A stretch of DNA of 64,000 nt from contig OX638348.1 in NCBI GenBank assembly GCA_951813085.1, positions 2,985,627 through 3,049,626 of the forward strand, read 5' to 3'. Shown here in pieces: positions 963 through 62,563 of this stretch. The stretch's first letter is position 1. The number at the start of each line of letters is the position of its first letter. The notes under the pieces were generated by a model. That model worked only from the letters and a program-made list of their open reading frames with translations, did not search any database and was not told the origin of the DNA. The DNA comes from an uncultured Opitutaceae bacterium. Its GTDB lineage: Bacteria > Verrucomicrobiota > Verrucomicrobiia > Opitutales > Opitutaceae. The translations under genes were made by a program, and so were the position numbers.

Positions 963-1250
963 AGGCTTACTCAGAGTAGAATTCTGCAAATTCAATCTCC
1001 ACTCGTATCTCCATACTTTAACTACAGCTCGCTCAATGCCGCTGAGATTAGCGGACAATTCAAGGAAGGCTCCGCTAGCCGTGTCGAAGAGACTGCCTCA
1101 CAGCTCTACAACTACCGTAGCCTAGAGCAGCAGCTCGAAACCAAACGCGGCGAACTCAACGTCGAAGCGCACTTCAACCGCAAGACTGCGCTCAAACTTG
1201 AAATTCAACAGATCAAATCTCAAATGGCAGAACTCGCCAAGCAGCTCTAA
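963..1250 (+). pseudogene. DUF4391-like C-terminal fragment
   Basis: No start codon with upstream coding context is visible. The frame ending at the TAA of 1248-1250 reads continuously and has the look of a real C-terminus. It contains SQLYNYRSLEQQL, then a charged helix with EAHFNRKTALKLEIQQIKSQ. That helix resembles, from memory, the end of DUF4391 proteins, which often sit beside type III restriction-modification genes. It stops 30 bases before mod, so the fragment is probably the remains of the first gene of that operon, truncated by whatever event joined the island to the oxidoreductase gene. The family assignment is tentative. Confidence 0.4.
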
Positions 1251-1280: not shown

Positions 1281-3125
1281 ATGGACAAACTGACCCAAGC
1301 CGACGCCACTTCTCACGACATTGTTGCCGACAATATCGATAAGCTCAAAACCATCTTCCCCGAAGCCTTCACCGAAGGTAAAATCGACTTTGATGTGCTC
1401 AAGGAAACGCTGGGAGAATATCGTGAAACGCGAGAAGAGCGTTACAACTTTTCATGGGCAGGAAAGAGCAAAGCACGCCGCCTAGCACAGACACCAGCGA
1501 CGGGGACGCTCCGCCCATGTCCTGAAGAAAGTGTCGATTGGGACACAACGGAGAACCTTTTCATCGAGGGTGACAACCTTGAGGTGCTCAAGCTCCTACA
1601 AAAGTCTTACCAAGGGAAGGTAAAGATGATCTATATTGATCCACCTTACAATACAGGGAAGGACTTCGTTTACCCCGATAAGTATGCAGACAATTTGAAA
1701 GGATATTTAGAGTTTACAAAGCAAGTTGACGGAGAAGGAAACAAGCTTTCCAGCAACGCAGAAACTGGCGGACGCTATCATAGCAACTGGCTGAATATGA
1801 TGCTGCCTCGTTTGACGCTTGCGAAGAACCTGCTCAAAGATGATGGAGTCATGTTTATCAGTATTGATGATTCAGAAGCTGCTAATTTAGTGAAATTGGG
1901 CGATGAGGTATTTGGTGAAGAAAACCGTATCTCTCTGATTTGTCATAAGTCCAGAGCTTCTGTCTCAAACGATAAAATAATATCTCCTAACCATAATTAC
2001 ATACTACTATATGCAAAAAATGAGAGAACGATCTTCAACCTAAGATCAAAATTTGGGCTGCCTCCTGAACTTGATGGTTTTGACGAAGAGGATGAAAATG
2101 GTCAGTTTAAGTTTGTTCCGGTCGATGGACCAGGAGGAGCAGCTAAAGGCAACCCACACTACACGTTTTTGGGCGTTACGGGCTATTGGCGTTTCTCTGA
2201 AGAAACGATGAAAGAAAAATATGATGCAGGCTTGGTTCAAAAAGTAGGTAACGGCCTTCAGCAAAAGTATTATTTGGAGGATGCAAAAAAAACACGCAAA
2301 ACAACTACAACATGGTGGGATGAGAAGCTCTACACCTCAACGGCATCTGCTAGATTGAAGCAATTAATGGATGGTGCCCCATTCAATAATCCTAAACATA
2401 TCGATCTCATTAGAAAGATGATCGAATTATGGTGTAGGAATGATGGAGATATAGTTGTTGATTTCTTTGCAGGATCAGGAACTACTGCACATAGCTGCTT
2501 AGAGCAAGCAGTCACAAACGATCAAGACATTCGCTACATAGTTGTTCAGCTCCCCGAACCATTAGCCACTGAAGCTTCACAAAAGGTAGCAGCAGAATAC
2601 TGTGATAGGATAGGCAAGCCTAGGAATATAGCAGAACTATCGAAAGAACGCATTCGTCGCACTGCTGCAAAAATTAAGGATGAGCATCCAGACTACAAAG
2701 GCGACCTTGGCTTCAAAGTCTTCAAACTGGATAGCTCAAACATCGAAGCATGGGATAGCAACGACGAGAACCTCGAAGACAGCGTGCTCAAAGCAGCAAA
2801 TGTCTTGAAAGACGGACGGGGTGAACTCGATATCGTTTACGAACTCTTCCTCAAGTATGGCCTCGACCTGAGCTACTCCGTCAACACGCACGAAGTCGCA
2901 GGCAAGCAGGTCTACGAAATTGGCGCAGGATCGCTCTTCATTTGCCTCGAAGACCACATCACCACCGACTTCGTTGAGGCATTGATCAAACTCTACAAAA
3001 GCTTCGATGATGAAGCAGCCCCACGGGTCGTTTTCAAGGACAGCGGCTTCAAAACAGACGCCGCCAAAAAGGACGCCGAAAGCACGCTCAAGGACGCAGG
3101 CATTCTCGACGTCAAATGCCTCTAG
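1281..3125 (+). CDS. mod: Type III restriction-modification methyltransferase (Mod), adenine-specific
   Basis: This 614-residue beta-class N6-adenine DNA methyltransferase is the modification and target-recognition subunit of a type III system. Catalytic motif IV, DPPY, is at residues 120-123 in YIDPPYNTGKDF. The SAM-binding motif FFAGSGTT is near residues 394-401. DPPY before FxGxGTT is the beta-class order, and the variable target-recognition region lies between them. The N-terminus (KLKTIFPEAF, then LGEYRETREERY) matches the usual Mod leader. The ATG at 1281 is the first reasonable start. Res follows 25 bases downstream on the same strand. The part from about 1900 to 2700 is visibly more AT-rich than the ends, as expected for an exchanged recognition domain. 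Confidence 0.93.
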   Translation: MDKLTQADATSHDIVADNIDKLKTIFPEAFTEGKIDFDVLKETLGEYRETREERYNFSWAGKSKARRLAQTPATGTLRPCPEESVDWDTTENLFIEGDNLEVLKLLQKSYQGKVKMIYIDPPYNTGKDFVYPDKYADNLKGYLEFTKQVDGEGNKLSSNAETGGRYHSNWLNMMLPRLTLAKNLLKDDGVMFISIDDSEAANLVKLGDEVFGEENRISLICHKSRASVSNDKIISPNHNYILLYAKNERTIFNLRSKFGLPPELDGFDEEDENGQFKFVPVDGPGGAAKGNPHYTFLGVTGYWRFSEETMKEKYDAGLVQKVGNGLQQKYYLEDAKKTRKTTTTWWDEKLYTSTASARLKQLMDGAPFNNPKHIDLIRKMIELWCRNDGDIVVDFFAGSGTTAHSCLEQAVTNDQDIRYIVVQLPEPLATEASQKVAAEYCDRIGKPRNIAELSKERIRRTAAKIKDEHPDYKGDLGFKVFKLDSSNIEAWDSNDENLEDSVLKAANVLKDGRGELDIVYELFLKYGLDLSYSVNTHEVAGKQVYEIGAGSLFICLEDHITTDFVEALIKLYKSFDDEAAPRVVFKDSGFKTDAAKKDAESTLKDAGILDVKCL

Positions 3126-3150
3126 GTCGCAACCTCATCCAAGCAAACTG

Positions 3151-6100
3151 ATGAAAATCCAATTCAACGCGAACCTTCAATACCAAGAGGATGCGATCCA
3201 ATCCACGGTTGACCTCTTTCGAGGACAAACCGCAGCGGAAGCTTTGTTTTCGGTGCCCGTCTACAATGCGCCAGTCGATGGCTCTGAGCTCGACCTTCGC
3301 TCAGAAGACGCACGCGGGGTTGCTAACAAGCTCCACCTCCAGAAGGACGACATTTTAGAAAATCTTCGAGCCATCCAAATCCGCAACGGCCTGAAGCAAA
3401 CCGAAGACCTCAAATCACTCGACTTCACGGTCGAGATGGAGACAGGCACAGGTAAGACCTACGTCTATCTGCGCACCATCTTCGAATTGTATAAAGCCTA
3501 CGGCATGCGGAAGTTCATCATCGTCGTGCCAAGTGTGGCGATCCGTGAGGGTGTCTACAAATCGCTCCAGATTACCAGTGAGCACTTCAAGGCTCTCTAC
3601 ACCGAGACACCGGAGCACTACGTCTACAAATCGGAACAGCCTGGAGACATCCGAGCCTTTGCCACGGGCACCAACATTCAGATCATGGTCATCAACATCG
3701 ACGCCTTCCGTAAAGGTTTCGACGCGAAGACAGGAGCTGCCGAGACGGCAGAGAATAGCAAGAAGGCGACGCTCATTCACAGACCTTCAGAAAAGCTCAA
3801 TGGCTTGAAGCCGATTGAATTCATCCGTCAGACCAACCCCGTGCTCATCATTGACGAGCCGCAAAATATGGAGACTGCGAATGCCAAGGGTGCATTGGCC
3901 TCTATGAACCCGCTCTTTACCCTGCGCTACTCGGCAACGCACAAAGACCGCTACAATCCGATCTATAAGCTCGATTCCATCGATGCTTATGAGCAGAAGT
4001 TGGTGAAACAGATTGAGGTTGCTGAGATCAAAGACCACGAGGCGCACAACACACCGCATATCAAATTGCTCAAAGTCGCCAAGCCCTCAGCAAAGGCGAT
4101 TACAGCCGAGATCGAATTCGACCAGCGTGATGCCAAAGGTTTCGTCACCCGCACGAAGAAGAAAATCAAGAGCGGTGACGACGTCGAAGAACTCTCGAAA
4201 GGACGCGAAATCTACAACGGTTTTCGGGTAGCTGAGATCAACCGTAGAGAAGGCGATGAGTTTGTATCCTTTGAGCCATCAGGCATTCGCCTCAAGGTTG
4301 GAGAGACGCATGGCGGCATGGCCGATGACGACCTCAAGCGTCTGCAAATCCGCAAGACCATCGAAGAGCACTTGGACAAAGAACTCGTGCTCACAGGTCA
4401 AGGCATCAAGGTGCTCAGCCTCTTCTTCATTGATAAGGTCGCCAACTACAGAAGCTATGATGCAGATGGCAATCCGGTGAAGGGCAAGTATTCCCAGTGG
4501 TTTGAAGAGGAATACGCGGAGCTCATTCAACGCGAAAAATACAAAACGCTTTTCGCTGATGTGGACACCGAGAGCCTGCCGGAGATCGTGCGCAACGGCT
4601 ACTTTGCTCAGGATAAGGGGAAATTCAAAGACAGCACCACGGGCAGTAGTGAGGCAGACAGCGATGCCTACTCCCTGATCATGAAGGATAAGGAACGCCT
4701 TCTCAGCTTTGACTCAAAGCTGAAATTCATCTTCTCGCACTCCGCTCTGCGTGAAGGTTGGGACAATCCGAACGTCTTTCAAATCTGCACGCTCAATGAA
4801 ACAGCCTCAGTCATGAAGAAGCGGCAAGAAATCGGTCGCGGTCTCCGCCTTGCGGTCAATCAAGACGGCGAACGCATTCAAGGCTTTGAGGTCAATACAC
4901 TCACCGTCATGGCGAATGAAGCCTATGACAGCTTTGTCCGACGCCTTCAGAAGGAAATGGAAGAGGATGAAGATTTGCACTTTGGCACCGTGCTGGAGCA
5001 CCAGTTTGCCAACATCACGCAAACCAACCTCGATGGCACAACGCGAGCTTATCTTGGAGAGAAGGAATCCAAGAAGCTCTACGACCACCTCAAGAAGGAA
5101 GGGCATGTCGATAAGAAGGGAAAAGTGCAGGACAGCCTGCGATTAGCCCTCAAAGACAAAACGCTAGAACTGCCCGAGGAGCTAAAGCCCGTGGAAGAAG
5201 CCATTTGCGCCAACCTCAAGCGCGTAGCAGGCAATTTAAACGTAAGCCGAAAGAAGGACCGCACCAAGGTCGACCTCAACAAACGCGTCTTCCTCGATCC
5301 CGCATTCAAAGAACTCTGGGATCAGATTGAATACAAGACCCGCTATCGCTTGGACTTTGACAGCAAGAAACTGGTGGAGACATGCGCCAAGAAGCTGAAC
5401 AAGGAGCTGGATATTGGCGCACCCGTCATCATCTACACCAAGGACAAGGTGGAAGTGAAGCGCAGTGGCCTGAGCGGCGGTAAACCAATCACAGAAGTCG
5501 AAGTCTTCGATAAGCGAAACTACAAGCTTCCCGACATCGTGGGCTACCTCACCGAAGCCACGATGCTCAAGCGTCAGACTGTCATCGATATACTGATCGA
5601 TTCCAAGAAGCTCGAAGACTTCCCCAAGAACCCGCAACGCTTCATCGAACGTGCCAGTGAGATCATCAAGCACGAGATGGAACTCTTCATCGTCGATGGG
5701 ATTACCTACCACAAAATCGACGAAGACGGCACTGAAGCGATTTATGCTCAGGAGCTATTTCAAAACGAAGAACTCCACGGCTATCTCGGCAAGAATATGC
5801 TCAAAGTTGAGAACTCAGTCTTTGAGCACGTCGTCTACGACTCCGACACCGAGAAGACCTTCGCCGAAGCGATGGAACGCAGCAAGAACGTGAAGCTCTA
5901 CGCGAAACTGCCGGACTGGTTCAAAATCCCCACACCCTTGGGTAGCTACAATCCAGACTGGGCAATCCTCGTCACCGTAGGCGAAGAAGATCGCCTCTAC
6001 TTCGTCGTCGAGACCAAGAGCACACTACTCAGTGCTGAACGTCGCGAAAAAGAAAACCAGAAGATCGAATGTGGCAAAGCCCACTTCCGCGACATCCAAA

Positions 6101-6165
6101 CCGCCAACCAATTCGAAGTCTCAGACGACTTCACCCAATTGAGCACGAAGTTCATTCAGTCTTAA
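3151..6165 (+). CDS. res: Type III restriction enzyme Res subunit (SF2 helicase-endonuclease)
   Basis: A 1004-residue protein. The reading frame opens upstream at 3007, but the ATG at 3151 gives the conserved Res N-terminus (MKIQFNANLQYQEDAI) and avoids overlap with mod. Walker A is METGTGKT around residues 96-103. Motif II is DEPQ at 235-238, the type III variant of DEAD. EIGRGLRL is motif VI-like. At the C-terminus NPDWAI (Pro935-Asp936) and VETKS (Glu954-x-Lys956) form the PD-ExK nuclease core. The family translocates or diffuses on DNA with ATP hydrolysis and cuts between two head-to-head unmodified sites in complex with Mod. All key motifs look intact. Confidence 0.94.
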   Translation: MKIQFNANLQYQEDAIQSTVDLFRGQTAAEALFSVPVYNAPVDGSELDLRSEDARGVANKLHLQKDDILENLRAIQIRNGLKQTEDLKSLDFTVEMETGTGKTYVYLRTIFELYKAYGMRKFIIVVPSVAIREGVYKSLQITSEHFKALYTETPEHYVYKSEQPGDIRAFATGTNIQIMVINIDAFRKGFDAKTGAAETAENSKKATLIHRPSEKLNGLKPIEFIRQTNPVLIIDEPQNMETANAKGALASMNPLFTLRYSATHKDRYNPIYKLDSIDAYEQKLVKQIEVAEIKDHEAHNTPHIKLLKVAKPSAKAITAEIEFDQRDAKGFVTRTKKKIKSGDDVEELSKGREIYNGFRVAEINRREGDEFVSFEPSGIRLKVGETHGGMADDDLKRLQIRKTIEEHLDKELVLTGQGIKVLSLFFIDKVANYRSYDADGNPVKGKYSQWFEEEYAELIQREKYKTLFADVDTESLPEIVRNGYFAQDKGKFKDSTTGSSEADSDAYSLIMKDKERLLSFDSKLKFIFSHSALREGWDNPNVFQICTLNETASVMKKRQEIGRGLRLAVNQDGERIQGFEVNTLTVMANEAYDSFVRRLQKEMEEDEDLHFGTVLEHQFANITQTNLDGTTRAYLGEKESKKLYDHLKKEGHVDKKGKVQDSLRLALKDKTLELPEELKPVEEAICANLKRVAGNLNVSRKKDRTKVDLNKRVFLDPAFKELWDQIEYKTRYRLDFDSKKLVETCAKKLNKELDIGAPVIIYTKDKVEVKRSGLSGGKPITEVEVFDKRNYKLPDIVGYLTEATMLKRQTVIDILIDSKKLEDFPKNPQRFIERASEIIKHEMELFIVDGITYHKIDEDGTEAIYAQELFQNEELHGYLGKNMLKVENSVFEHVVYDSDTEKTFAEAMERSKNVKLYAKLPDWFKIPTPLGSYNPDWAILVTVGEEDRLYFVVETKSTLLSAERREKENQKIECGKAHFRDIQTANQFEVSDDFTQLSTKFIQS

Positions 6166-6199
6166 TTTCACTCTTCAATTTTCACCATTCACTATTCCA

Positions 6200-7819
6200 A
6201 TGAACGAAATTTCCTGCCCCCATTGCGGCAAAGCCTTCAAGATCGATGAGACCGGATACGCTGACATCATCAAGCAAGTCCGCGACAAAGAATTCGACGC
6301 CCAGCTGAACGAACGGCTGGAGCTGGCCGAGAAAGAAAAGAGCGATGCGGTGGAACTCGCAAAGGCCAAGCTGAGCACAGAGCTTAAAAGCGAGACGCAG
6401 GAAAAAGAAGCAACGATCAAAGAGCTGAAGGCTCAGTTGGAGGCTGGAAAGACCGAGCAACAATTGGCGGTCAACAATGCGGTAACAGCCGTTGAAAAGG
6501 AGCGCGACGACCTCCTGAACCAACTGAAGCAGGCCAAACAGGAAACACAGAATGCCACCGAGCAAGCGGAGAAAGACAAAGCCAGTGCAGTCGAGCTGAC
6601 TGAGCAAAAGGTCAGCAGCCAATTGCGAACAGAGCTTCAGGAGCAGAAGACTATCATCCAAGAACTCAAAGCTCAGTTGGATGCAGGCAAGACGGCTCAG
6701 GAATTGGCAGTCAAAGACGCTGTTACCAGTCTTGAGAAAAAGAAAAGCGACCTCGAAAACCAATTGCAGCGAGTGAAAGTCGATGGCGAGAACGCCACGA
6801 AACTCGCTGAAATGGAAAGGCAGAAGGAAATTCAAGAGCTTAAAAGTCAACTGGAAGCCAAGGAGGTCAGCCAAAAGCTAGCGATCACCGAAGCAGTGAG
6901 TGTTGTGGAGAAAGAGCGCGACACGCTCAAACACAACTTAGACCAAGCCGCCCTTGAAAAGCAGGTCGCAGAGAAGGCGATTACCGATAAATACGAAGTT
7001 CGCCTGAAAGACCGCGATGAAGAGATCGAACGCCTCAAGGATTTTAAGGCGAAGCTCTCCACCAAGATGGTCGGCGAAACACTCGAACAGCACTGCGAAA
7101 CGGAATTCAATCGCATCCGCTCAACTGCATTCCCACGTGCTTATTTCGAGAAAGACAACGATGCCAGCTCAGGCAGCAGGGGGGACTATATCTTCAAGGA
7201 CAACGACGAGGCTGGAACCGAGATCGTCTCGATCATGTTCGAGATGAAGAACGAGAACGACACCACGGCCACGAAAAAGAAGAATGAAGACTTCTTCAAA
7301 GAGCTGGACAAAGACCGCAACGAGAAAGGCTGCGAATACGCCATCCTCGTCTCGCTCCTAGAACCCGAAAACGAACTCTACAACTCAGGGATCGTCGATG
7401 TGAGCTACCGCTACGAGAAGATGTATGTCATCCGGCCACAGTTCTTTATCCCGATGATTACCCTGCTTAGGGATGCCGCGATGAATGCCCTGAGCTACAA
7501 GAACGAACTTGCCCTAGTGAAATCCCAGAACATCGACGTGACGAACTTCGAGACAGACTTGGAGAAGTTCAAAAACGCCTTCGGCAGAAACTTCGAACTC
7601 GCATCTAACCATTTCAACAAGGCAGTCGATGAGATCGATAAATCCATCTCACACCTGCAAAAGACCAGAGAAAGCCTCTTGAAATCCGAAAACCAGCTTC
7701 GCCTAGCAAACGACAAGGCGCAGGATGTGACGGTCAAAAAGCTCACCCGCAAGAACCCCACAATGAAGGAGAAGTTCGAGGAGGCTAAGACCGTGAACCA
7801 AGTTGGCGAGATCGAGTAA
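6200..7819 (+). CDS. DUF2130 domain protein with long coiled coil
   Basis: 539 residues. A short N-terminal zinc-ribbon-like start (SCPHCGKAF, Cys5-x2-Cys8) leads into about 240 residues of Glu/Lys/Gln-rich coiled coil. A repeated unit, about KELKAQLEAGKT then LAV.NAV..VEKE, recurs about three times at roughly 75-residue spacing. The C-terminal half is the DUF2130 core. It contains SRGDYIF followed about 15 residues later by MFEMKNE, which has a D...ExK spacing like PD-(D/E)XK nucleases; the nuclease role is inference. The start is 34 bases after res and the gene is co-directional, so it is likely a fourth component of the same operon. Experimental function of DUF2130 is not known to me. Confidence 0.85.
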   Translation: MNEISCPHCGKAFKIDETGYADIIKQVRDKEFDAQLNERLELAEKEKSDAVELAKAKLSTELKSETQEKEATIKELKAQLEAGKTEQQLAVNNAVTAVEKERDDLLNQLKQAKQETQNATEQAEKDKASAVELTEQKVSSQLRTELQEQKTIIQELKAQLDAGKTAQELAVKDAVTSLEKKKSDLENQLQRVKVDGENATKLAEMERQKEIQELKSQLEAKEVSQKLAITEAVSVVEKERDTLKHNLDQAALEKQVAEKAITDKYEVRLKDRDEEIERLKDFKAKLSTKMVGETLEQHCETEFNRIRSTAFPRAYFEKDNDASSGSRGDYIFKDNDEAGTEIVSIMFEMKNENDTTATKKKNEDFFKELDKDRNEKGCEYAILVSLLEPENELYNSGIVDVSYRYEKMYVIRPQFFIPMITLLRDAAMNALSYKNELALVKSQNIDVTNFETDLEKFKNAFGRNFELASNHFNKAVDEIDKSISHLQKTRESLLKSENQLRLANDKAQDVTVKKLTRKNPTMKEKFEEAKTVNQVGEIE

Positions 7820-7847
7820 GACTAATCAACGCCCAAGCCCATTAGAG

Positions 7848-9980
7848 ATGAACATCAAGATTAAAAACTGCAACAATATCGATTCAGGAGAAATTGGCAT
7901 TCAGCCTGACAAGCTGAACATCAAACTAGGTATTAACGGAGCAGGAAAGAGCACCATTGCTAGATCTTTAAGAATGAGTATTGACGGTAAAGATCTGTCC
8001 TCACTCAAACCGTTCAAGCATGAAAACGACAAAACCGATGAGCATGCACCTGCTGTTTCAGGTTTAGACAAGATTCGTTCGGTAAAGGTTTTTAACGAAG
8101 AGTATATCTCTCAATTTGTATTCAAACCTGAAGAGCTGATTGAGAATAGCTTCGGGATTTTCATTAAGACACCTGATTACACCGAGAAGATGGAGGCCAT
8201 CAACGCCCTCATCGCAGATGCAAAAAAAGTTTTTCAAGAGCACAAAGGGCTGGATCAGGCGATCAAAGATTTCGAACAGCTAGCGGCCGATATGCGTACG
8301 ACTGCTGCGGGGTCGTTGGCTGGAAATAGTAAGATGTCGAAGGCGTTTGGTGGAAATGGCAATATTCTGGAGAATATTCCTGACGAACTTTCAAGTTACA
8401 CGAATTATCTGAAATCGGATTCGAATGTGAAATGGTTGAAGTGGCAGGCGCAAGGGAACGCGTTTTTAGATTTGGACAGTGGTTGCCCTTACTGCATAGC
8501 GCCAACAGAGGAGAAGAAAGAGAGAATAAAGAAAGTCAGCGAGGTATATAACAGTAAGACTGTTGAAAATCTCGGAGCTATTATCGATGTGATTGGAAAG
8601 CTGGGAGATTATTTCTCCGCTTCAGCCGTTTCGACCCTCGACGGGATAGTGAAGAAAATTGAAGGATTGAATAAAGAAGATGAGGGTTTTCTCGTCGAAC
8701 TGAAAGAACAGGCGGACAGGCTATCAAACCACCTAAAGAAGATACAAAATCTATCAAATTTTGACTTCAAGGATAAGGACAAAGCTAAGGAAGAAATCAA
8801 CGCCCTAAGGATCGATATTCGCCTTTATCCGTATCTAGATTCTGAAAAGACTCAGCAAGTAGTCGCCACAGTTGACGCTTCTATCACTGAAGTCGTCGAT
8901 AAAATTGGCCTCCTTAAAGGTCAAATTGCCCAACAGGAGAGTCTTGTTAGGAATGCTATCGAAAATAACCAGAAGAAGATCAATGGCTTTTTATCCTGCG
9001 CTGGCTACAAGTATCAGGTAGAACTGCTGAGGGAGGAGAACGACATCAAACTGAGGCTTAGGCACACAGAAGGAACTAAGGCGGTTCAAAATGGAGATCA
9101 GCATCTGAGCTATGGAGAAAGGAATGCCTTTGCCGTTATCCTCTTCATGTATGAGTGCTTGGCGCAAAAACCAGGGCCAGACTTGATAATTCTGGATGAT
9201 CCAATTTCTTCATTCGATAAGAACAAAAAATTCTCTATCCTGCATAAGCTCTTTAGGGGCTCGCATTCATTGAAGTCTAAAACCGTTCTTTTACTGACGC
9301 ACGATGTTGAACCCGTCATCGACACGATTAAGATTATGCCAGACAAATTCGCTGAGTTCACGGTGGCGAGCTATCTCAGAAATCGCAACGGCTCGCTTAC
9401 TGAGGAGGCTATCAGCTATGGAGACATTCTTAGCTTTAAGCAAATTTGCGATGCAGTGCTGGAGACACACTCAAACAAACTTATCAAGCTGATTTACTTG
9501 AGGAGGTATTTTGATGTTCTTGATGACAAAGGCATGGAGTATCAGATGCTCTCAAGCCTTTTCAAAAAGGCTTCAACGCCATACATCAAGAACGGTGACG
9601 ATGAAAGGGATTTCACCTCGGAACAGAAATCTGAAACGGAAGATAAGATCAGTGAGCTGATTAAAGGGTTTTCTTACGATGAATTGTTAGCTGTGCTTGG
9701 TGACAAAACCCAAATAGTGGAGGCATACAAGCAGGCTGAAAATGGATATGAGAAGGTGCAGATTTTCAGGCTTCTTGAAGCGGAGCATGAAGATCATGTC
9801 GTAAGAAAGTATATTAGTGAGACTTTCCATATCGAAAATGATCTGGTTTGCCAACTGTCACCTCAGAAGTATGATCCAGTCCCTGATTTTCTTATCGGAG
9901 CTTGTGATTTGTATATTAAACGAAAACTACCCTCAGAATTAGATAAACACACAGATGTCCAACCTAGCCAGAGCCATTGA
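7848..9980 (+). CDS. RloC/PrrC-like ABC-type ATPase (AAA_13), possible anticodon-nuclease-type effector
   Basis: 710 residues from the ATG at 7848; an ATG at 7803 would add 15 unlikely residues and overlap the previous gene. Walker A GINGAGKST is at 28-36, an ABC-type signature LSYGERN starts at 420, Walker B LIILDDP is at 446-452 and an H-loop His is near 485. Coiled-coil segments lie between. A Cys213-Pro-Tyr-Cys216 pair inside the coiled coil recalls the Rad50-like zinc hook of RloC. VFNEEYISQF near residues 80-89 fits AAA_13 (RloC/PrrC). RloC and PrrC are tRNA anticodon nucleases that back up restriction systems. I could not place the nuclease residues with certainty; the C-terminus has a conserved-looking ETFHIEND. 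Defence association is strong; RNase activity is inference. Confidence 0.78.
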   Translation: MNIKIKNCNNIDSGEIGIQPDKLNIKLGINGAGKSTIARSLRMSIDGKDLSSLKPFKHENDKTDEHAPAVSGLDKIRSVKVFNEEYISQFVFKPEELIENSFGIFIKTPDYTEKMEAINALIADAKKVFQEHKGLDQAIKDFEQLAADMRTTAAGSLAGNSKMSKAFGGNGNILENIPDELSSYTNYLKSDSNVKWLKWQAQGNAFLDLDSGCPYCIAPTEEKKERIKKVSEVYNSKTVENLGAIIDVIGKLGDYFSASAVSTLDGIVKKIEGLNKEDEGFLVELKEQADRLSNHLKKIQNLSNFDFKDKDKAKEEINALRIDIRLYPYLDSEKTQQVVATVDASITEVVDKIGLLKGQIAQQESLVRNAIENNQKKINGFLSCAGYKYQVELLREENDIKLRLRHTEGTKAVQNGDQHLSYGERNAFAVILFMYECLAQKPGPDLIILDDPISSFDKNKKFSILHKLFRGSHSLKSKTVLLLTHDVEPVIDTIKIMPDKFAEFTVASYLRNRNGSLTEEAISYGDILSFKQICDAVLETHSNKLIKLIYLRRYFDVLDDKGMEYQMLSSLFKKASTPYIKNGDDERDFTSEQKSETEDKISELIKGFSYDELLAVLGDKTQIVEAYKQAENGYEKVQIFRLLEAEHEDHVVRKYISETFHIENDLVCQLSPQKYDPVPDFLIGACDLYIKRKLPSELDKHTDVQPSQSH

Positions 9981-10449
9981 AATTGCCTCGACTGACCATA
10001 AGGAGCAGACGCGGTTCGATGGTAGCCCATACATTCTGCATCCCCTCCGGCTGATGTTTCAGCTCGAAGGCGAAATGCAGCAAATGGCAGCGGTGCTCCA
10101 CGACGTAGTCGAGGACACCGATTGGACGTTTGAGGATTTGAGAAAGGAAGGCTTCGATGAAGCTCTGATCGAAGCTCTGGATTGTTTGACCCGACGAGAG
10201 GGCGAGTCCTACAAGGAATTCATCGACCGTCTGGCTCCAAACCCCCTCGCCAGAGCGGTCAAAATCGCAGACCTTGAGGACAATATGAACCTCAAGCAGC
10301 TTGAGCGAGTCACAGACAACGACCTCAAGCGCACTGCGAAGTATCACAAGCACTGGAACGCTTGGTTTCCATGGACTGACTGGTTGCGCCGGTTACAGAG
10401 CCTCCATCGCTCCGCTAGTCTCGGCACAGGAACCGCCGCCTTTGAATAG
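9955..10449 (+). CDS. SpoT/MESH1-like HD-domain phosphohydrolase, tail probably altered
   Basis: 164 residues, starting at an ATG that overlaps the ATPase gene by 26 bases, so the two are translationally linked. The HD-hydrolase residues are visible: His29 in ILHPLRLM, His49-Asp50 followed by Glu53-Asp54 in LHDVVEDTDW, and Asp106 in VKIADLEDNMN. This is the metal-dependent core of (p)ppGpp hydrolases and related small-molecule phosphohydrolases. No synthetase, TGS or ACT domain is present. After KYHKHW the sequence turns into Trp- and Arg-rich text (WFPWTDWLRRLQSLHRS) not expected for the family. A rearrangement junction probably replaced the last few residues. The core may still be functional. 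Confidence 0.82.
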   Translation: MSNLARAIEIASTDHKEQTRFDGSPYILHPLRLMFQLEGEMQQMAAVLHDVVEDTDWTFEDLRKEGFDEALIEALDCLTRREGESYKEFIDRLAPNPLARAVKIADLEDNMNLKQLERVTDNDLKRTAKYHKHWNAWFPWTDWLRRLQSLHRSASLGTGTAAFE

Positions 10450-10773
10450 GCAAACGCTCACGGCGAGCCGCGACCGATTGCCTTTTTGAAGTCACGGGGC
10501 GCACGCGCCCCCAAGTAACAGGGTTCCCAGCCTGTTTTTCCGCTGCCGCGGAACAGGATTATCCATCCCTCCGCTTAAACCCGTAAAGGTCGTATTTTTG
10601 CGCCCACTTGTGCAGCAGCGTCACAGGTTCCTCGCTTCCGCATTCAACGAAAAAATCTCCACCTTGACTGGACGGTTGCACCGTCCGCTTCGGGCACTCT
10701 CTAGCTTCGCTCGCCGCTTGGCAGGGAAAATCAGGCTTTCAATCAAGAAGGTCGTAACAACTGGAGATTAAAA
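10450..10773. other. Intergenic junction between R-M operon and ardA
   Basis: No convincing gene. A GC-rich perfect inverted repeat (GGGGCGC-AC-GCGCCCC) lies at 10496-10511. On the minus strand, between about 10571 and 10690, a short frame without a start codon ends in TLLHKWAQKYDLYGF plus a few residues and may be the tail of a lost gene. An AGGA/GGAG-type ribosome site (ctggagattaaaaATG) precedes ardA. The altered end of the HD gene and these scraps suggest two independently acquired segments meet here. Confidence 0.4.
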
Positions 10774-11310
10774 ATGACTGTCACAACAGAAACGAGCACT
10801 TACGAAACACAGCGCATCTACATTGCTTGCCTTGCGGCATACAACAGCGGAATTCTACACGGGGAATGGATTGAGATTGAAGACGACATTGACGAAACGT
10901 GGAACCGCATCCGTAGCGTTTTGGCATCCTCACCGATTGAAGACGCAGAGGAATGGGCAATCCATGACTTTGAAGGTTTCGGAGGCATTCGCCTTTCCGA
11001 ATGGGAAAGCATTGAGCGGGTGCATGAGCTTTCCGAGTTCATGCAGGAGCATGAGGAAATCGGGGCTTTAGTTCTCGATCACTATTGCGGCGATATCGAG
11101 GACGCGACCCGCGCCCTTGAAAATTACATGGGTTGCTATTCCAGCCTTGCCGATTACGCGCAGGAGCTAACCGAGGACACAAGCGAAGTGCCGGAGCACC
11201 TGCAATTCTACATCGATTACGAGCGCATGGGGCGCGATATGGAGATGAGCGGCGATATTTTCACCATCGAAACCCGCTTCGATCAGGTTCACATCTTCCT
11301 GAACCACTAA
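10774..11310 (+). CDS. ardA: ArdA-like antirestriction protein
   Basis: 178 residues with the ArdA opening pattern RIYIACLAAYNSGILHGEWI, then repeated acidic stretches (EIEDDIDETW, EDAEEWAIHD) and a C-terminus rich in Asp and Glu. ArdA proteins are dimeric mimics of bent B-form DNA that block type I restriction enzymes; they are usually encoded by plasmids and conjugative elements to protect incoming DNA. It has its own ribosome site and a strong terminator directly after the stop, so it is a single-gene unit. Its position a few hundred bases from a host-type restriction operon suggests it came with a mobile element. Confidence 0.9.
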   Translation: MTVTTETSTYETQRIYIACLAAYNSGILHGEWIEIEDDIDETWNRIRSVLASSPIEDAEEWAIHDFEGFGGIRLSEWESIERVHELSEFMQEHEEIGALVLDHYCGDIEDATRALENYMGCYSSLADYAQELTEDTSEVPEHLQFYIDYERMGRDMEMSGDIFTIETRFDQVHIFLNH

Positions 11311-11316
11311 AAATTT

Positions 11317-11346
11317 GGCTCCCCGCCGTGAGGCGGGGAGCCTTTT
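11317..11346 (+). terminator. Rho-independent terminator of ardA
   Basis: A perfect 11-bp stem (GGCTCCCCGCC / GGCGGGGAGCC) with loop GTGA is followed by TTTT. It begins six bases after the ardA stop. Confidence 0.92.
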
Positions 11347-11433
11347 GCTTTCCAAGGGAAAAGGTGCCTAAAAGCACCTTTTAGGTTAATTATCTTGCTA
11401 GAAGTGCTAAAAGGCCCTTAATTTTAGGTATCA

Positions 11434-11829
11434 ATGCAAGAAGCACTAATAGCCAGCGATGCCATCCAGCTCAAGATTATGGACTCCTTGCGCGACAAGA
11501 GGCGTTCCTTTGACCAGAACACACAGTCTCAAAACTACCTAGATCACTGGGGTATTACAACCAAGGGCTTCTTTTCCGCTCTAATTGAAAATTTAGAGCG
11601 TTATCACATCTACCTAAAACCAAAACAGAACCCAGCAGCTTATGCTCAGAAATACCAATTCGTGATGCGTTGGGACAAGTGTGAGGATGGCTTGCTCATC
11701 CACATCACGCTTACACCTCGTAGCGAACCCCCAGGAGTGAAAATTGCGATCCATGAACATAATACGGGCTATAAGCCTCTGCCGCTTAAGCCGATAAAAT
11801 CAAAAAAGAAGAACAATGAAAAACGCTGA
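11434..11829 (+). CDS. Putative toxin partner, 131 aa
   Basis: I do not recognise the family with certainty. The protein is small and basic at its end (KPIKSKKKNNEKR) with DHWGITTKGFFSALIENLERY followed by a strand-rich half (YQFVMRWDKCEDGLLIHITL). Size, order and a 14-base overlap with a downstream MqsA-like antitoxin fit a toxin-first type II pair such as mqsRA or higBA. The sequence itself does not look like MqsR. A role as RNase or other toxin is inferred only from the context. Confidence 0.6.
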   Translation: MQEALIASDAIQLKIMDSLRDKRRSFDQNTQSQNYLDHWGITTKGFFSALIENLERYHIYLKPKQNPAAYAQKYQFVMRWDKCEDGLLIHITLTPRSEPPGVKIAIHEHNTGYKPLPLKPIKSKKKNNEKR

Positions 11830-13156
11830 AACAACTATGACAACTGCCCCTTGCTTCGAGTGTGAGAATGGCACCTTGCATGCGGTTATTGAGGACTACA
11901 AAACAACTCTGCCTGAAGTCGGTGAAATCGTTGTCTCTAATGTGCCAATGGAACGCTGCGACGAATGCGGCGACACCGTCATCGGCGAAGAAGGAAACAA
12001 AATCATAGACGCTTATTTGGATAAGATCACTGGCGCAATTACGGTCAGTGAAATCCAAGCGTTTCTTGATAAGTATTCAATTACTCAAAAGGAAGCAGCA
12101 GAGATCACAGGCTATGGTGAGAAAAATATTTCTCGCTGGCTGCGTGGGCATATGCGCCCATCGAAATCGGTAAGCAATAATCTGCGAACCTTATTCGCGA
12201 GCACTGAAGCCTTTGAAATTCTCCGTAACAGGAATTGGAGCTGTTCGCCTACAGAAAGATTGCTAATCGAAGACAGGCAGCCTGACCCAGAAGAAAAGAA
12301 AATCCTTTCTTTTATAGACTACAAGGCGATGGCTGAAATGAAACTCGTTGAAAAGAGCCAAAGCCCTAAAGTCAGACGAACTCAAGTCTGTCAGCTTTTT
12401 CAAAAGGCTACTTTGCAGGAGGTTCAAAAGAAGCTCGAAGATTCTTGGCATGAAGCAGCAGCTTACCAAGACACCAATCAGGCTTCCAACCCGATTAGTG
12501 CTGGAATGTGGTCCTGGATCGGAGAGCAGGCAGCGGCTAGTATTCAAGTTGAGCCTTATGATCGTGAAAAATTGTCAGGGGCTGTAGAAACTCTTCGAGA
12601 ATATAGTCAGCACGAAATTGTTCAGGTCATCCCTAAAGTGCGGGAAGTTTTACGTCAGGCTGGTGTAGCCCTAGTATTCGTTCCAATCATGAAAGAATCT
12701 GCTCTACGCGGGTGCACTAAGCTGGTAAGTCCAGCGAAGGCCGTGATCGTGCATGGCCTGAAATATCGCAACCATGCGCAATTTTGGAGAATTCTATTTC
12801 ATGAGATTGCTCACCTCATGCTACATTTGTGCGAAGCAGGTGAATCTATAGCAGACTACGACAATCAGCAAGATGACCCTAGGGAACAGGAAGCAGATCA
12901 GTGGGCAGATGACACTCTGGTTTCGACTAGCGAGTTGAACCGTTTTGCTGTCAGGCATCCAGCACCTCCCAATTGGCAGGTGCAACGTTTCGCCCAAAAA
13001 ATCAAAACCCATCCGGCTATTGTGGCTGAAATCTTTAATAAGCGCGCAGGTGAGGAGGTCATTAAATATTCCCTATTAAGATCAAATGGGCTCTTTCCTA
13101 GTATCCCTGAAAGTGCAGTGAAATCACTCGGTCAGGAGTTGGCTGATCATTTTTGA
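11816..13156 (+). CDS. MqsA-like antitoxin fused to ImmA/IrrE-family metalloprotease
   Basis: 446 residues; an internal ATG at 11837 would remove the overlap with the preceding gene. The N-terminus has a YgiT/MqsA zinc site (Cys13-x2-Cys16 and Cys48-x2-Cys51). An HTH follows around residues 80-120, with ITQKEAAEITGYGEKNISRWL. A long linker leads to an ImmA/IrrE (DUF955) protease domain with HEIAHLMLH at 329-337, the HExxH zinc site. MqsA antitoxins bind DNA and their toxin; ImmA/IrrE proteases cut repressors on damage or other cues. One chain could therefore be repressor, antitoxin and its own switch. The cleavage role is inference. Confidence 0.82.
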   Translation: MKNAETTMTTAPCFECENGTLHAVIEDYKTTLPEVGEIVVSNVPMERCDECGDTVIGEEGNKIIDAYLDKITGAITVSEIQAFLDKYSITQKEAAEITGYGEKNISRWLRGHMRPSKSVSNNLRTLFASTEAFEILRNRNWSCSPTERLLIEDRQPDPEEKKILSFIDYKAMAEMKLVEKSQSPKVRRTQVCQLFQKATLQEVQKKLEDSWHEAAAYQDTNQASNPISAGMWSWIGEQAAASIQVEPYDREKLSGAVETLREYSQHEIVQVIPKVREVLRQAGVALVFVPIMKESALRGCTKLVSPAKAVIVHGLKYRNHAQFWRILFHEIAHLMLHLCEAGESIADYDNQQDDPREQEADQWADDTLVSTSELNRFAVRHPAPPNWQVQRFAQKIKTHPAIVAEIFNKRAGEEVIKYSLLRSNGLFPSIPESAVKSLGQELADHF

Positions 13157-13486: not shown

Positions 13487-13557
13487 TGGTTGGGACCCCG
13501 CGAACTAGCCCACTTTTGATGAGGTGATTTTCGTCGATCAACGAAAGGACATCATCG

Positions 13558-13824
13558 ATGGAAAAGACAAGACGCGCGACCGAGCAGATAATCCGCATAC
13601 TGAGGGAGGCCGACACGGGGCTTCGGACCGAGGGGATCTGCCGCAGGCGCAGCATCAGCTCCCAGAGCTTCTACCGCTGGAAGAGCAAGTACGGAGGCAT
13701 GGATCTGAAGGAGGCTCAGCGCCTCCGCGACCTGGAGAAGGAGAACACCGAGCTCAAGAAGCTGCTTGCCGACCAGCTGCTCAAGACCAAGGCCCTGGAG
13801 ATCGCGCTGGGGAAAAACCTCTGA
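13558..13824 (+). CDS. IS3-family transposase OrfA (copy 1)
   Basis: 88 residues. An HTH region (TEQIIRILREADTGLR, then ISSQSFYRWKSKYGG) is followed by a leucine-zipper helix (LRDLEKENTELKKLLADQLL). This is the IS407-group OrfA layout. OrfB continues in the -1 frame just after GGGAAAAAC near the stop, where programmed slippage normally makes the OrfAB fusion. Confidence 0.9.
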   Translation: MEKTRRATEQIIRILREADTGLRTEGICRRRSISSQSFYRWKSKYGGMDLKEAQRLRDLEKENTELKKLLADQLLKTKALEIALGKNL

Positions 13825-14604
13825 GCCCGGAGCGGCAGCGCGGGGTTGCGGCGAAGGTCCAGTCCGCGCTGTCGCGTTCCGGGAGAGCCGCGTGCCGGTG
13901 GCTGGGGATCAGCCGCTCGACGCTCCGCTACCTTCCGAAGCCCAAGCCCGAGGGGAAGCGCTTGCTGGAGCCGGAGATCGTCCGCCTTCCGGGGGAGCAT
14001 CCGACGCTTGGATGCAAGAAGATCTCGGCAAAGCTGAGGTCGCTTGGCTACCGCGCGACCAAGAAGCTGGTCCAGCGCGTCCGCAGGGAGGAAGGGCTGC
14101 AGGTTCCGCCTCGCCGCCCTCGCAGGCGGCGGCAGGGGCTCTGCGCGGGGCTTCCGCGGAAGGCGCTTCGCCGCAACCGCGTCCGGGCCTGGGGCCTCGT
14201 CTCGGACTACGCCCAGCGGGGAGGCAAGCTGCGGGCCTTCGACCTGATAGGCGAATGCGCTCGCCAGCGCCATTGCATCCATGCCGACCGGGCGATCAAG
14301 GCCTCCGACGCGCTGGCCCCGCTGCAGGAGGCGATCCGCGAGCATGGGGCTCCCGAATGCATCCGCTCGGGCAACGGGCCCGAGCTCATCGCCAAGGCCA
14401 TCCAGGGCTGGCTTGCCGAGAACGGGATCAAGGCTCTATGCATCGATCCGGGCCGCCCTTGGCGGAACGGATACGCGAAAGCTTCAGCAGCCGCTTTCGC
14501 GAGGAACGCCTCGACCGCCCTTCGGGCGATCTCCACCCCAGGCAGCTTAAACCCAAGCCCAACAACAAGAAACCCGTCGAGAATCTCTCATTCAAACCGG
14601 GCTA
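13821..14604 (+). pseudogene. IS3-family transposase OrfB (copy 1), disrupted
   Basis: The start is PERQRGVAAKVQSALSRSGR and the HTH_21-type region is followed by the rve integrase core. The expected first catalytic Asp (WSMDFVSD in relatives) is replaced by a shortened AWGLVSD. The second, in RSDNGPEF, is Gly (RSGNGPEL). After RNGYAK the frame breaks, so the Glu of ESFNG is lost as well. The tail continues only as a frameshifted remnant to about 14604. Confidence 0.85.
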
Positions 14605-14741
14605 AACTGCGGGGTCCAACCAGTATCACTGTTGAAATAAAGATTATCAGTTCTGACGTATCCTTTCTCACTGCCGCGCTAGCAACCCGGGGCAAGCCTC
14701 AAGAATCGAGCGCCCTGCATCCACAACCTAGGCCACCTGGC

Positions 14742-16199
14742 CTAGTTCCTCGCAGGTTTCTCGAATTCCCTATAAAGCGGCGTACCCGAGCCGCTGCTAC
14801 CAGGAGGGATGGCGGCGTTGTATTCCGGTATCCATCGGCCAAGGTCACGGATGAGGTCGCTATGCTCGGGATTCGCAGCTAAGTTCGCTCGCTCGCGCTG
14901 ATCCTTACGATGATCGTACAATTCCTCGGAGCCGTCATCGTAACGCGTATAGCGCCAATGCTCCGAACGGATGCTATGATTGTTCGGTCCGAACGTGGTG
15001 ATGGCGGGACGCTCCCAGACCGCATTGGCTCTGGTCAAGAGAGGCCGTAGGCTAACGCCATTGAGGCCCTTTTTTGCGGGCAGTCCACAGAGGTCCGTCA
15101 AAGTAGGATAAATATCGATCAGTCCTACCGGCTTGGATACAGTAGCGTTCTCTAGCAAATTCGGTCCCGCTATAATCATCGGTACGCGTGTCGATTCCTC
15201 CCATAGCGTCCGCTTGGCCCAGTGCATTTTCTCGCCCATATGAAATCCGTGATCGCTCCAGAGGACAATGAGGGTGTCGTCTGCGGCTCCGCTTTGTTCG
15301 AGTCCGTCGAGCACGGTTCCGACGCAGTGGTCGACATAGGAGATGCAGGCCAAATAGGCCTGAACCATCGCCTTCCATTCCCCGGCTTCTACTACCCAAT
15401 CATGCTTGGGAGCGATGTGACCGAATGTCAGCGTTTTCGCGTATTCAGAAAATTGGTCGCGATCCGTGGACAATACTTCCGGTATTTCCAGCGAATCCAT
15501 CGGGTAAAGATCGAACCACTTCTGCGGCACGTACAGCGGGACGTGGGGATTGGAAAAGCCGATGGCCATGAAGAAGGGTTTGTCGTCCTCAGCCAACTCC
15601 TTCAGGCGTTCCGCCCCCCAAAGGGCCGTTTGGTAATCCTGCGTGTCCTCGTCCTTTTCATAATAAGGGCCCCAGTCCCAAGCGCGGCTTCCTTCAAACG
15701 AGGCAAGGCGACGTTTCGGTCGCGGTACCGGTAACGAAGCCGTCACGGTTTCGTCAAAGGAGTCCGTCTCATCCGCCAAGCCTTTTCCATGGAAGATCTT
15801 CCCGCGGGTTGTCAGATAGTAGCCTTGACGCTTGAAGTACTGGAACATCGTTTCCGCATCCACATTCTCGGAAGCCCCCCTCAAACCAGGCGCCAAAAAA
15901 TAGATGCCGGTATTCGAAGGTAGCAGACCCGAGATCATGCTAACCCGAGCGGGATTGCAAATCGGGGCTTGGCAGTGGGCATTCGTGAATACAGTCCCAC
16001 GCTCGGCGAGCCGATCCATGTGCGGGGTTTGCGCTTGTGGATGTCCCCCGTCGGCGCCGATCCAGTCATTGAGATCGTCGATGGCGATAAAGAGAACGTT
16101 GAGCGGCTCGGCCTGTCCTGAATCTCTCGATTCGGCCAATAGTCGGTGCGTTCCAGAGGTTAAGAGAAAAACGGCGACAGCAAGGGATAGTATTTTCAT
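14742..16199 (-). CDS. Secreted sulfatase, iduronate-2-sulfatase-like
   Basis: 485 residues from the ATG complement at 16199. An open frame upstream to 16382 is only read-through of a simple repeat and was rejected. A signal peptide (MKILSLAVAVFLLTSG) precedes the metal-binding FIAIDDLNDW. The sulfatase signature Cys81-Asn-Pro-Ala-Arg85 lies in APICNPARVSMISG; its Cys is converted to formylglycine by a maturase not in this window. HGFHMGEKMHWAKRTLWEES carries the later active-site His and Lys. The enzyme should remove sulfate esters from polysaccharides in the periplasm or outside. The closest named type is iduronate-2-sulfatase, but the substrate is unknown. Confidence 0.92.
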   Translation of the reverse strand: MKILSLAVAVFLLTSGTHRLLAESRDSGQAEPLNVLFIAIDDLNDWIGADGGHPQAQTPHMDRLAERGTVFTNAHCQAPICNPARVSMISGLLPSNTGIYFLAPGLRGASENVDAETMFQYFKRQGYYLTTRGKIFHGKGLADETDSFDETVTASLPVPRPKRRLASFEGSRAWDWGPYYEKDEDTQDYQTALWGAERLKELAEDDKPFFMAIGFSNPHVPLYVPQKWFDLYPMDSLEIPEVLSTDRDQFSEYAKTLTFGHIAPKHDWVVEAGEWKAMVQAYLACISYVDHCVGTVLDGLEQSGAADDTLIVLWSDHGFHMGEKMHWAKRTLWEESTRVPMIIAGPNLLENATVSKPVGLIDIYPTLTDLCGLPAKKGLNGVSLRPLLTRANAVWERPAITTFGPNNHSIRSEHWRYTRYDDGSEELYDHRKDQRERANLAANPEHSDLIRDLGRWIPEYNAAIPPGSSGSGTPLYREFEKPARN

Positions 16200-45710: not shown

Positions 45711-46454
45711 ATGAAGATCCTTACCCCGTTCCTTAATGGACCGCATTTGCGGTCAGTACTTTTTGTATTTTCCTTCACATGCTTCCTCGGTGTCGCCTCG
45801 GCGCAGGAATGGCCTAGCGAGCCGAAGACCGTCAAGGGAGAAGAGATCGAAGACCGGCTTAAGGGCGCTTGGGGGCTGACTCATGGGGTCGCTGCTAGGA
45901 ATGCGCTGAGAGATGGCGATGTTCCCTCGGCCCGCGCAGCGCTTCGCCGATTGGCTGCCGCGGACCCGCAACTCGCCGATCCTGACGCCAACGAAAGCCT
46001 GCTTCTAATTGAGCTCATGGAGTCGAGGACCGTGAAGTCGAGCGATGGCGCTGCCCGTTCACTGGTCCGCGATGCACTCTCAAGACAATCCTCGAAGGAT
46101 CCTGAGGCAATGTTCCTTAGAGCCACTGCATTGACTGACTACCTAGGCGATGGTCAGAAGGCGGTTGAACTATATCGAAGGATCGTTTCGGGCTATACAG
46201 GAAGGAATGCTGATCTGAGCACAGCGGAGAGCCTGACTGAGGCGTACAAGAGGGCAATCGACAGGGGAGACGAGCCCTCCGGCTACCAGCGACGGGCCTA
46301 TGGTCGTTTGCTGAAAGTTCTCGCTCTTCGAGAATCGTCGACCCCATCTGAGGCAGCTGAGCTGCCATCGGTTGTCGAGGGCGTATCCGTGGGCGAGGGC
46401 GAAGGAAATGGTATGGAAGGAATCGTTGGCGATGTCCTGTCAACCCCTCGCTAA
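45711..46454 (+). CDS. Exported TPR-like helical protein
   Basis: 247 residues with a signal peptide (LRSVLFVFSFTCFLGVASAQ). The body is alanine-rich helices of TPR spacing: ALRDGDVPSARAALRRLAA, DPEAMFLRATALTDYLGDGQKAVELYRRIV. The C-terminus is Gly/Glu/Val-rich (VGEGEGNGMEGIVG). It lies 52 bases before the RHS gene on the same strand, so it may be co-expressed and help export or processing of the RHS protein; that is inference. Function otherwise unknown. Confidence 0.72.
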   Translation: MKILTPFLNGPHLRSVLFVFSFTCFLGVASAQEWPSEPKTVKGEEIEDRLKGAWGLTHGVAARNALRDGDVPSARAALRRLAAADPQLADPDANESLLLIELMESRTVKSSDGAARSLVRDALSRQSSKDPEAMFLRATALTDYLGDGQKAVELYRRIVSGYTGRNADLSTAESLTEAYKRAIDRGDEPSGYQRRAYGRLLKVLALRESSTPSEAAELPSVVEGVSVGEGEGNGMEGIVGDVLSTPR

Positions 46455-46506
46455 TCGTCGCCGACCAACTCCGCAATTTCGTTTTCCAACCTTAACAGCA
46501 TCGATC

Positions 46507-53783: not shown

Positions 53784-53854
53784 TGGTTGGGACCCCGCGA
53801 ACTAGCCCACTTTTGATGAGGTGATTTTCGTCGATCAACGAAAGGACATCATCG

Positions 53855-54121
53855 ATGAAAAAGACAAGACGCGCGACCGAGCAGATAATCCGCATACTGA
53901 GGGAGGCCGACACGGGGCTTCGGACCGAGGGGATCTGCCGCAGGCGCAGCATCAGCTCGCAGAGCTTCTACCGTTGGAAGAGCAAGTACGTAGGCATGGA
54001 TCTGAAGGAGGCTCAGCGCCTCCGCGACCTGGAGAAGGAGAACACCGAGCTCAAGAAGCTGCTTGCCGACCAGCTGCTCAAGACGAAGGCCCTGGAGATC
54101 GCGCTGGAAGAAAACCTCTGA
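53855..54121 (+). CDS. IS3-family transposase OrfA (copy 2)
   Basis: 88 residues, nearly identical to the copy 1 OrfA (Gly-to-Val at YVGMD and LEENL at the end). HTH plus leucine-zipper helix. OrfB continues in the -1 frame near GAAGAAAACCTCTGA. Confidence 0.9.
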   Translation: MKKTRRATEQIIRILREADTGLRTEGICRRRSISSQSFYRWKSKYVGMDLKEAQRLRDLEKENTELKKLLADQLLKTKALEIALEENL

Positions 54122-54918: not shown

Positions 54919-55049
54919 ACTGCGGGGTCCAACCAATTGGAAGAAAATGCGAAGCGGAAATTTCGGTGATTATCTCAGAAGAAAAAATGATTAGATTAAC
55001 TAACCAATCAGTTCTTGCAATTCCCAGCTGCGCGTCCTACGTCGTGATG

Positions 55050-62471: not shown

Positions 62472-62563
62472 ATGTCAGAAGAACTCGAACTTGGTGGTTC
62501 GCCAGCTAACTCCATTTCAACTGATGAACTTGATACGCTACTTAGATTGCTGAGCGATGCGAC
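62472..62563 (+). pseudogene. Gene start truncated by IS copy 3
   Basis: An ATG at 62472 begins SEELELGGSPANSISTDELD, then LLRLLSDAT, and enters the IS end at 62564. Nothing after 63755 continues this reading (AAA TAA), so the rest of the gene is missing rather than only interrupted. Confidence 0.55.

Follow-up and report, generated by a model that had tools for sequence, protein, structure and literature searches.

Does a Type III restriction-modification (R-M) pair that is followed by three further genes on the same strand form one defence system with them, or do only some of the added genes belong together? The question is raised by positions 1281 to 10449 of a 64,000-nucleotide stretch of DNA from an uncultured Opitutaceae bacterium (contig OX638348.1, positions 2,985,627 to 3,049,626, forward strand), which we refer to in full as the window. 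An initial annotation, made from the sequence alone, had read this locus as a Type III pair extended by a DUF2130 protein, an RloC-like ATPase and a SpoT-like HD protein, which together might form a layered defence. Our analysis favors a narrower reading, to which we give a probability of roughly 0.55: a portable cassette of two genes, encoding the DUF2130 protein and a PDC-S06 ATPase, has been placed behind a Type III R-M pair as a second-line defence. What the sequences show directly is where the cassette starts and stops at the DNA level, that it follows Mod-Res pairs of two different subfamilies, and which motifs its proteins have.

Layout of the locus

The five genes lie on the forward strand of the window, whose genome is one 4.85-Mb contig, in the order mod (1281..3125), res (3151..6165, with its ATG at 3151), the DUF2130 gene (6200..7819), the ATPase gene (7848..9980) and the HD gene (9955..10449). 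Open reading frames and junction sequences agree with the spacing first described, with gaps of 25 bases between mod and res, 34 between res and DUF2130 and 28 between DUF2130 and the ATPase, and an overlap of 26 bases between the ATPase and HD genes. The 28-base gap results from starting the ATPase at ATG 7848 in preference to the listed TTG at 7803, a choice made because close homologues start at the same MNIxIKNCNNID.

Mod, a Type III DNA methyltransferase with a Pfam N6_N4_Mtase domain, and Res, a restriction subunit having helicase and endonuclease domains (Pfam ResIII and RE_endonuc), match the PADLOC Type III models PDLC03634 (MTase_III, 664 bits) and PDLC03647 (REase_III, 1073 bits) nearly over their full lengths. 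These matches, the RE_endonuc domain and the 25-base gap confirm the Mod-Res pair of the initial annotation. By their adjacent mod and res genes the two belong to Type III R-M, with both methylation and two-site ATP-dependent cleavage predicted from sequence.

A two-gene unit with sharp borders

We searched 288 genomes of the window's phylum with thresholds of E 1e-30 for the ATPase model PDLC04889, E 1e-10 for DUF2130, and E 1e-8 each for the Type III endonuclease domain and the HD protein. Matches were found in 5, 17, 45 and 16 genomes, respectively, the window's own included, and the DUF2130 and PDLC04889 ATPase genes are about 1 kb apart or less in three of the five ATPase genomes. Fourteen named control genomes gave no match to PDLC04889, DUF2130 or the Type III endonuclease domain.

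The strongest single result of the analysis comes from a genome of the same taxonomic order, G172. Positions 6200-9942 of the window and 7894-11629 of G172 are 85.5% identical in DNA over 3747 columns, and this homology starts at the ATG of DUF2130 and stops at the stop codon of the G172 ATPase, 38 bases before that of the window ATPase. In G172 the Mod-Res pair ahead of the two genes belongs to other PADLOC subfamilies (best models PDLC03646/PDLC03654, versus PDLC03634/PDLC03647 in the window), and the HD gene is absent. These borders therefore define a recurrent unit of two genes, not three or five. The complete five-gene order of the initial annotation had no second case in the 288 sampled genomes or in the 45 ATPase loci described below; within these searches the DUF2130 and ATPase genes do occur with mod and res elsewhere, whereas the HD gene does not.

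The window genome contains five genes with a Type III endonuclease domain, and each of the other 44 matching genomes contains one or two. Of the five in the window genome, only the one in the window has a DUF2130, PDC-S06 ATPase or HD gene nearby.

The DUF2130 protein

The DUF2130 protein (PF09903, 304 bits) has an N-terminal CxxC and long predicted helices of the coiled-coil kind, and its AlphaFold2 model (predicted local distance difference test score, pLDDT, 71) shows a core with the element order helix-strand-strand-strand-helix-strand. All 14 homologues in the alignment keep residues E293, E296, D329, E348 and K350 unchanged. The features by which PD-(D/E)XK enzymes are recognized, namely a conserved E, D and E-x-K on an alpha-beta-beta-beta-alpha-beta core, are thus present. 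A Foldseek search with the model returned no match at E <= 0.001; ranks 1 to 7 were entries for BstEII, AspBHI, MspJI and MUS81, all of which we take to be PD-(D/E)XK enzymes, with BstEII the best (E 6e-3, probability 0.99). The invariant residues bear out the "possible PD-ExK core" noted earlier, and we predict from sequence and model that DUF2130 is a nuclease with a PD-(D/E)XK-like core. Among the publications that our searches listed as naming DUF2130, PF09903 or COG4487, none concerned defence as judged by title.

The ATPase

The ATPase is a Rad50-like ABC protein of 710 amino acids which matches PDLC04889 (PDC-S06) over profile positions 1-689 of 693 at 870 bits and Pfam AAA_13 at 71 bits. 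It has Walker A, Walker B and signature motifs, a CPYC at residues 213-216 in an inserted arm, and a helical C-terminal domain. All 18 homologues in the alignment keep the C, P and C of the hook-like motif, in agreement with the zinc-hook-like CxxC of the initial annotation, and all 18 likewise keep a C-terminal motif, K654-x3-E658-x2-H661-x-E663-N664. The matches listed by Foldseek for the AlphaFold2 model are mostly heads of the SMC, Rad50 and RecF/RecN type, followed lower down by retron ATPases, JetABC and Lamassu, with the Lamassu complex 9uxh among them. The closest named relative lies on a Rubritalea contig (77%), from which we place the window in Verrucomicrobiota, the phylum of Rubritalea.

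PDC-S names presumably denote single-gene candidates. The window ATPase resembles PDC-S06 in its full-length match to this listed candidate defence protein, and differs from it in forming, together with DUF2130, a cassette of two genes at a Type III R-M locus. One publication lists PDC-S06 as a predicted hit in a table. IbfA was considered as a characterized relative and rejected, since PMC12111858 describes a 518-amino-acid ATPase-TOPRIM protein of other architecture.

Genomic neighbourhoods of the two genes

Eight of 18 DUF2130 places in the window's phylum have defence neighbours (the window, G172, G206, G013, G139, G120, G273 and G128). Seven of these eight include R-M genes, and six have an intact ABC-type ATPase adjacent or near (the window, G172, G206, G013, G273 and G128). 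DUF2130 overlaps a PDC-S06 ATPase by 4 bases beside Mod in G206, and overlaps an AriA/OLD-like ATPase by 4 bases, also beside Mod, in G013. In G128 (locus L049, 6156-10016) a copy 82% identical to that of the window is followed after 27 bases by an ATPase of another PDC-S06 subfamily, and in G120 a short ATPase-like fragment (identified by eye) and a PDC-S02 gene are nearby. At seven further places (G118, G035, G131, G159, G178, G216 and G259) no defence neighbour was recognized by eye in up to three frames on each side; G050 is cut by a contig end, and G081 and a second copy in the window's genome, which complete the 18, lie outside the reading of neighbours.

Two of these places deserve separate mention. 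In G139 (locus L058, 9162-14930) genes for SIR2, HerA and a Type III Mod come after DUF2130, so that a different effector occupies the same slot. The G128 ATPase keeps the RloC triad, discussed below, and a CEFC motif, and is thus an RloC-like protein with a DUF2130 partner; no R-M genes were recognized near it.

Beyond the phylum, Enterobacter and Citrobacter plasmids sharing the same protein accessions have the order SNF2-DUF4391-OLD-DUF2130-Mod-Res, and an OLD-DUF2130 pair occurs in three viral contigs. DUF2130 is followed by a TrlF-type ATPase in Lactococcus and by DUF4297 and DUF87 genes in Paraburkholderia. In the phylum of a Sulfurimonas contig, which we take to be Campylobacterota, DUF2130 was found in 83 of 249 genomes, and at 6 of 30 loci examined a frame for an ABC-type or TrlF-like ATPase lies 17-67 bases downstream, a count from which L186, with a weak ATPase-like match 1.25 kb downstream, is excluded. 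Four of the six were scanned with PADLOC: two matched PDC-S06, one matched Ppl, and one short frame gave no match at E 1e-20.

We tallied the neighbours of the ATPase at 45 loci. These are partly redundant (for example L144 and L145), and L111 from Enterobacter and L114 from Citrobacter have the same protein accessions, so each count refers to loci, which need not be independent events; short fragments (L015 and L016), weak matches (L161-L163) and the other subfamily in L049 are left out. Type III Mod or Res genes are present at five loci (the window, G172, L003, L017 and L154). Type I-like genes are present at three (L009, L011 and L153), those at L009 and L153 being weak single matches; these calls rest on hsdM and hsdR queries with no valid hsdS query, and Type I loci are possibly undercounted. 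The ATPase stands beside a Type IIG enzyme in L027 and a Type II pair in L019, one locus each; the count leaves out L125, where a restriction endonuclease is annotated at a distance of about 3.7 kb.

Three ATPase copies on E. coli or Klebsiella plasmids adjoin VapC or VapBC genes, and one plasmid form was matched in 725 of 5,426 complete E. coli genomes, with 544 of the matches covering at least 80% of the gene. No relatives were found in 50,697 phage records. A scan of viral contigs with alignment A1 gave 23 loci, 20 of them long matches, and a single-sequence scan of these contigs gave none. Carriage on plasmids and viral contigs is consistent with defence cargo.

History of the Mod-Res locus

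Directly 5' of mod, at 993..1244 on the forward strand, lies the C-terminal end of a DUF4391 gene. It matches PF14335 at profile positions 167-231 of 232 with E 1.4e-6 and 28.9 bits, just below the cut-off of 29.9; it escaped a direct tblastn search that used three DUF4391 proteins, and the reverse search from the remnant matched L017 at E 0.027 only. Plasmid locus L017 has the order SNF2-DUF4391-Mod-Res, and in viral contig L154 SNF2-Mod-Res were matched and DUF4391 was not. From the remnant and these gene orders, the window locus is probably a cut-down form of a larger SNF2-DUF4391-Mod-Res system. Together with Rubritalea contig L003, which has Type III genes in another order and no Mod on the contig, these loci resemble the window in that an ATPase of this family lies near Type III genes; the window differs in that it has no SNF2 gene and only a remnant of DUF4391 but does have DUF2130.

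G223, a genome of the same genus, also has the adjoining Gfo/Idh gene, at 76.5% DNA identity. This similarity ends at about position 945, which we take from the sequence comparison as the left edge of an island.

Proposed function and points against it

In the second-line defence that we propose, Mod and Res would methylate DNA and cleave incoming DNA that lacks the modification. An ATPase dimer joined through its CPxC hook may sense DNA ends or abnormal DNA that arise once a phage evades or blocks restriction, and ATP binding would then turn on killing or DNA degradation. These steps of sensing, gating and killing are modelled on Rad50, RloC and Lamassu. Mre11 acts with Rad50, and LmuA with LmuB in Lamassu; by analogy, DUF2130 would be the coiled-coil PD-(D/E)XK DNase partner of the ATPase. 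The likeness lies in a zinc-hook SMC-type ATPase gene adjoining a nuclease gene; the window pair differs in being known as genes, likened by their arrangement rather than by the sequence of DUF2130 and Mre11 or by a complex. The C-terminal helical domain of the ATPase is probably a second effector, because the ATPase often occurs where no DUF2130 is seen. The HD protein would be a dispensable hitch-hiker.

A broader proposal, which we advance tentatively and would rate somewhat short of even, is that DUF2130 and an adjacent Rad50-like or ABC-type ATPase make up an unrecognized two-gene anti-phage module, in which a hook-bearing, DNA-sensing ATPase would gate a coiled-coil PD-(D/E)XK nuclease. 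Such a module may have been inserted repeatedly at Type III R-M loci whose subfamilies differ, in an exchangeable second-line effector slot that can also hold OLD/AriA-like ATPases or SIR2-HerA.

Several results weigh against the cassette reading. No R-M gene was found at 35 of the 45 ATPase loci and no DUF2130 nearby at 42, both upper bounds in that some flanks are short and tblastn missed a diverged copy in L027; because of these counts, the ATPase probably needs neither partner and works alone as well. Likewise, DUF2130 may have another role, because no ATPase-type partner was seen at 7 of 18 places in the first phylum and 24 of 30 in the second. The plasmid DUF2130 genes of three Bradyrhizobium, Mitsuaria, Arthrobacter and Aristaeella have no directly adjacent ABC ATPase. 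One of the Bradyrhizobium plasmids has an AAA ATPase about 0.9 kb past DUF2130, the Arthrobacter gene has Type I R-M nearby (an HsdM-like gene within about 4 kb, with an unnamed gene between), and the Aristaeella gene adjoins one annotated as ClpX. Support for the DUF2130 fold from Foldseek is modest (best E 6e-3, from a model of pLDDT 71).

The frequency of ATPase loci without R-M genes also fits the idea that Mod-Res and DUF2130-ATPase are two independent, uncoupled systems that share only a transcript and an island, as does the end of similarity to the same-genus genome at about 945 and the presence directly downstream of an ArdA gene, a PD-Lambda-2-like gene pair and a degenerate insertion element. 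This explanation overlaps with the cassette reading. It is put in doubt by the tight same-strand spacing of 25-34 bases and by the repeated placement behind or within Mod-Res loci in separate lineages, and we consider it a possible but less probable account.

Relation to RloC and PrrC

The initial annotation had likened the ATPase to RloC and placed it as a possible guard on the Type III system. Were it a guard of the RloC/PrrC type, it would be an anticodon nuclease silenced by Mod-Res and freed when a phage inhibits restriction, with DUF2130 and the HD protein as helpers. RloC is defined in PMC2610378 as an ABC ATPase of 658-897 residues with a CxxC insert and a C-terminal R-X3-E-X36-52-H triad. 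The window ATPase shares with it an ABC domain interrupted by a helical, CxxC-bearing insert, the AAA_13 match and the length of 710 amino acids, about 700 being typical of both. It also shares an occasional linkage to R-M, including Type III. In L011 the ATPase lies between hsdM-like and hsdR-like genes, the kind of position that PrrC has, and the ArdA antirestriction gene just downstream in the window is a further point in favor of a guard.

The triad, however, is absent. No R-X3-E-X36-52-H pattern follows Walker B in the window ATPase, and in the 18 homologues scattered patterns occur in some but none at conserved columns. The same comparison was positive in the controls: all 7 PrrC proteins in the alignment keep R, E and H (an eighth, L166, has stops in its frame and was excluded), and R655, E659 and H698 of the G128 ATPase, the His preceded by Ser, accord with the RloC rule. 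The PADLOC PrrC model gave no match to the window ATPase at E 0.1, and profile comparison with PrrC by hhalign aligned the ABC region alone, with probability 43. Nor is the ATPase a PrrC, which would be a short protein of the ABC-HEPN kind encoded within a Type I hsd locus: it has 710 amino acids versus 367-403 in the controls and lies in a Type III locus. Since the triad is missing, the name RloC is unwarranted and tRNA cleavage is not indicated; the protein has instead another invariant C-terminal motif and is paired with DUF2130. Identification as an RloC anticodon nuclease is thus not supported, and we regard a guard of this type as unlikely. What stands of the guard proposal is the linkage of a Rad50/RloC-like ABC ATPase to Type III genes, at five of the 45 loci. 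That part is also not new, and the layered-defence proposal is to this extent no longer a first: linkage of RloC to Type I or Type III R-M was reported in 2008 by Davidov and Kaufmann (PMC2610378).

The same genome also has a match to the PrrC model elsewhere (L169, G000:C1:3847058-3848239), with R-X3-E...H residues, between frames that by eye are hsdS-like and hsdR-like.

The HD gene

The HD protein is 41% identical (54 of 131 residues, E 9e-28) to 7smg, deposited as a (p)ppApp hydrolase, with the HD and ED motifs aligned. Matches to RelA/SpoT-type models are partial and below cut-offs (TIGR00691 56 bits; Pfam HD_4 21 bits, cut-off 27). The description as alarmone-hydrolase-like therefore holds by the 7smg match. 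The protein differs from an R-M component in that the relatives examined have no R-M linkage: none of 17 other HD places in the 288 genomes has a Type III endonuclease domain on its contig at a distance of 70 kb or less, many of these genomes being in many contigs; the HD gene adjoins the ATPase at one of the 45 ATPase loci, which is the window; and two plasmid relatives lie among hypothetical, HipA and Abi genes. We reject the HD gene as a conserved part of the system and consider that it probably came to lie here by chance or at a late stage. The alternative of a genuine layered system of five genes, with an HD enzyme that would remove an infection-made alarmone or reverse dormancy, has in its favor the 26-base overlap with the ATPase and the retained hydrolase motifs, but given the absence of HD from G172, where cassette homology ends at the ATPase stop, and the distribution of its relatives we think it very improbable, and with it the claim that the HD enzyme is a layer of this defence.

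Surroundings of the locus

The ArdA antirestriction gene directly after the HD gene (10774-11310, forward strand, Pfam 154 bits) places an anti-R-M gene next to an R-M locus. It is followed at 11434-13156, on the same strand, by a small gene without a Pfam match and a gene whose product matches PADLOC PD-Lambda-2_B at 94 bits and has an MqsA-type zinc finger, a helix-turn-helix and an M78-peptidase-like stretch; the two are likely a toxin-antitoxin-type defence pair. A degenerate insertion element is present in three copies, 95-98% identical by pieces, at 13501-14900, 53798-54935 and 62562-63741, the first just past the defence genes. Two very long open frames, of 2216 and 1960 codons, occur on the forward strand at 46372-53022 and 55174-61056.

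Implications

The general idea of an RloC-like ATPase associated with Type III R-M is known; the DUF2130-ATPase cassette on Type III loci was not found in our literature searches, which included effectors embedded in such loci. The clean border of the cassette makes testing simple, as only two genes are involved. If the cassette reading is true, DUF2130 becomes a predicted ATPase-gated nuclease of anti-phage defence, and Type III loci, like Type I loci, would carry suicide or clean-up effectors that can be exchanged.

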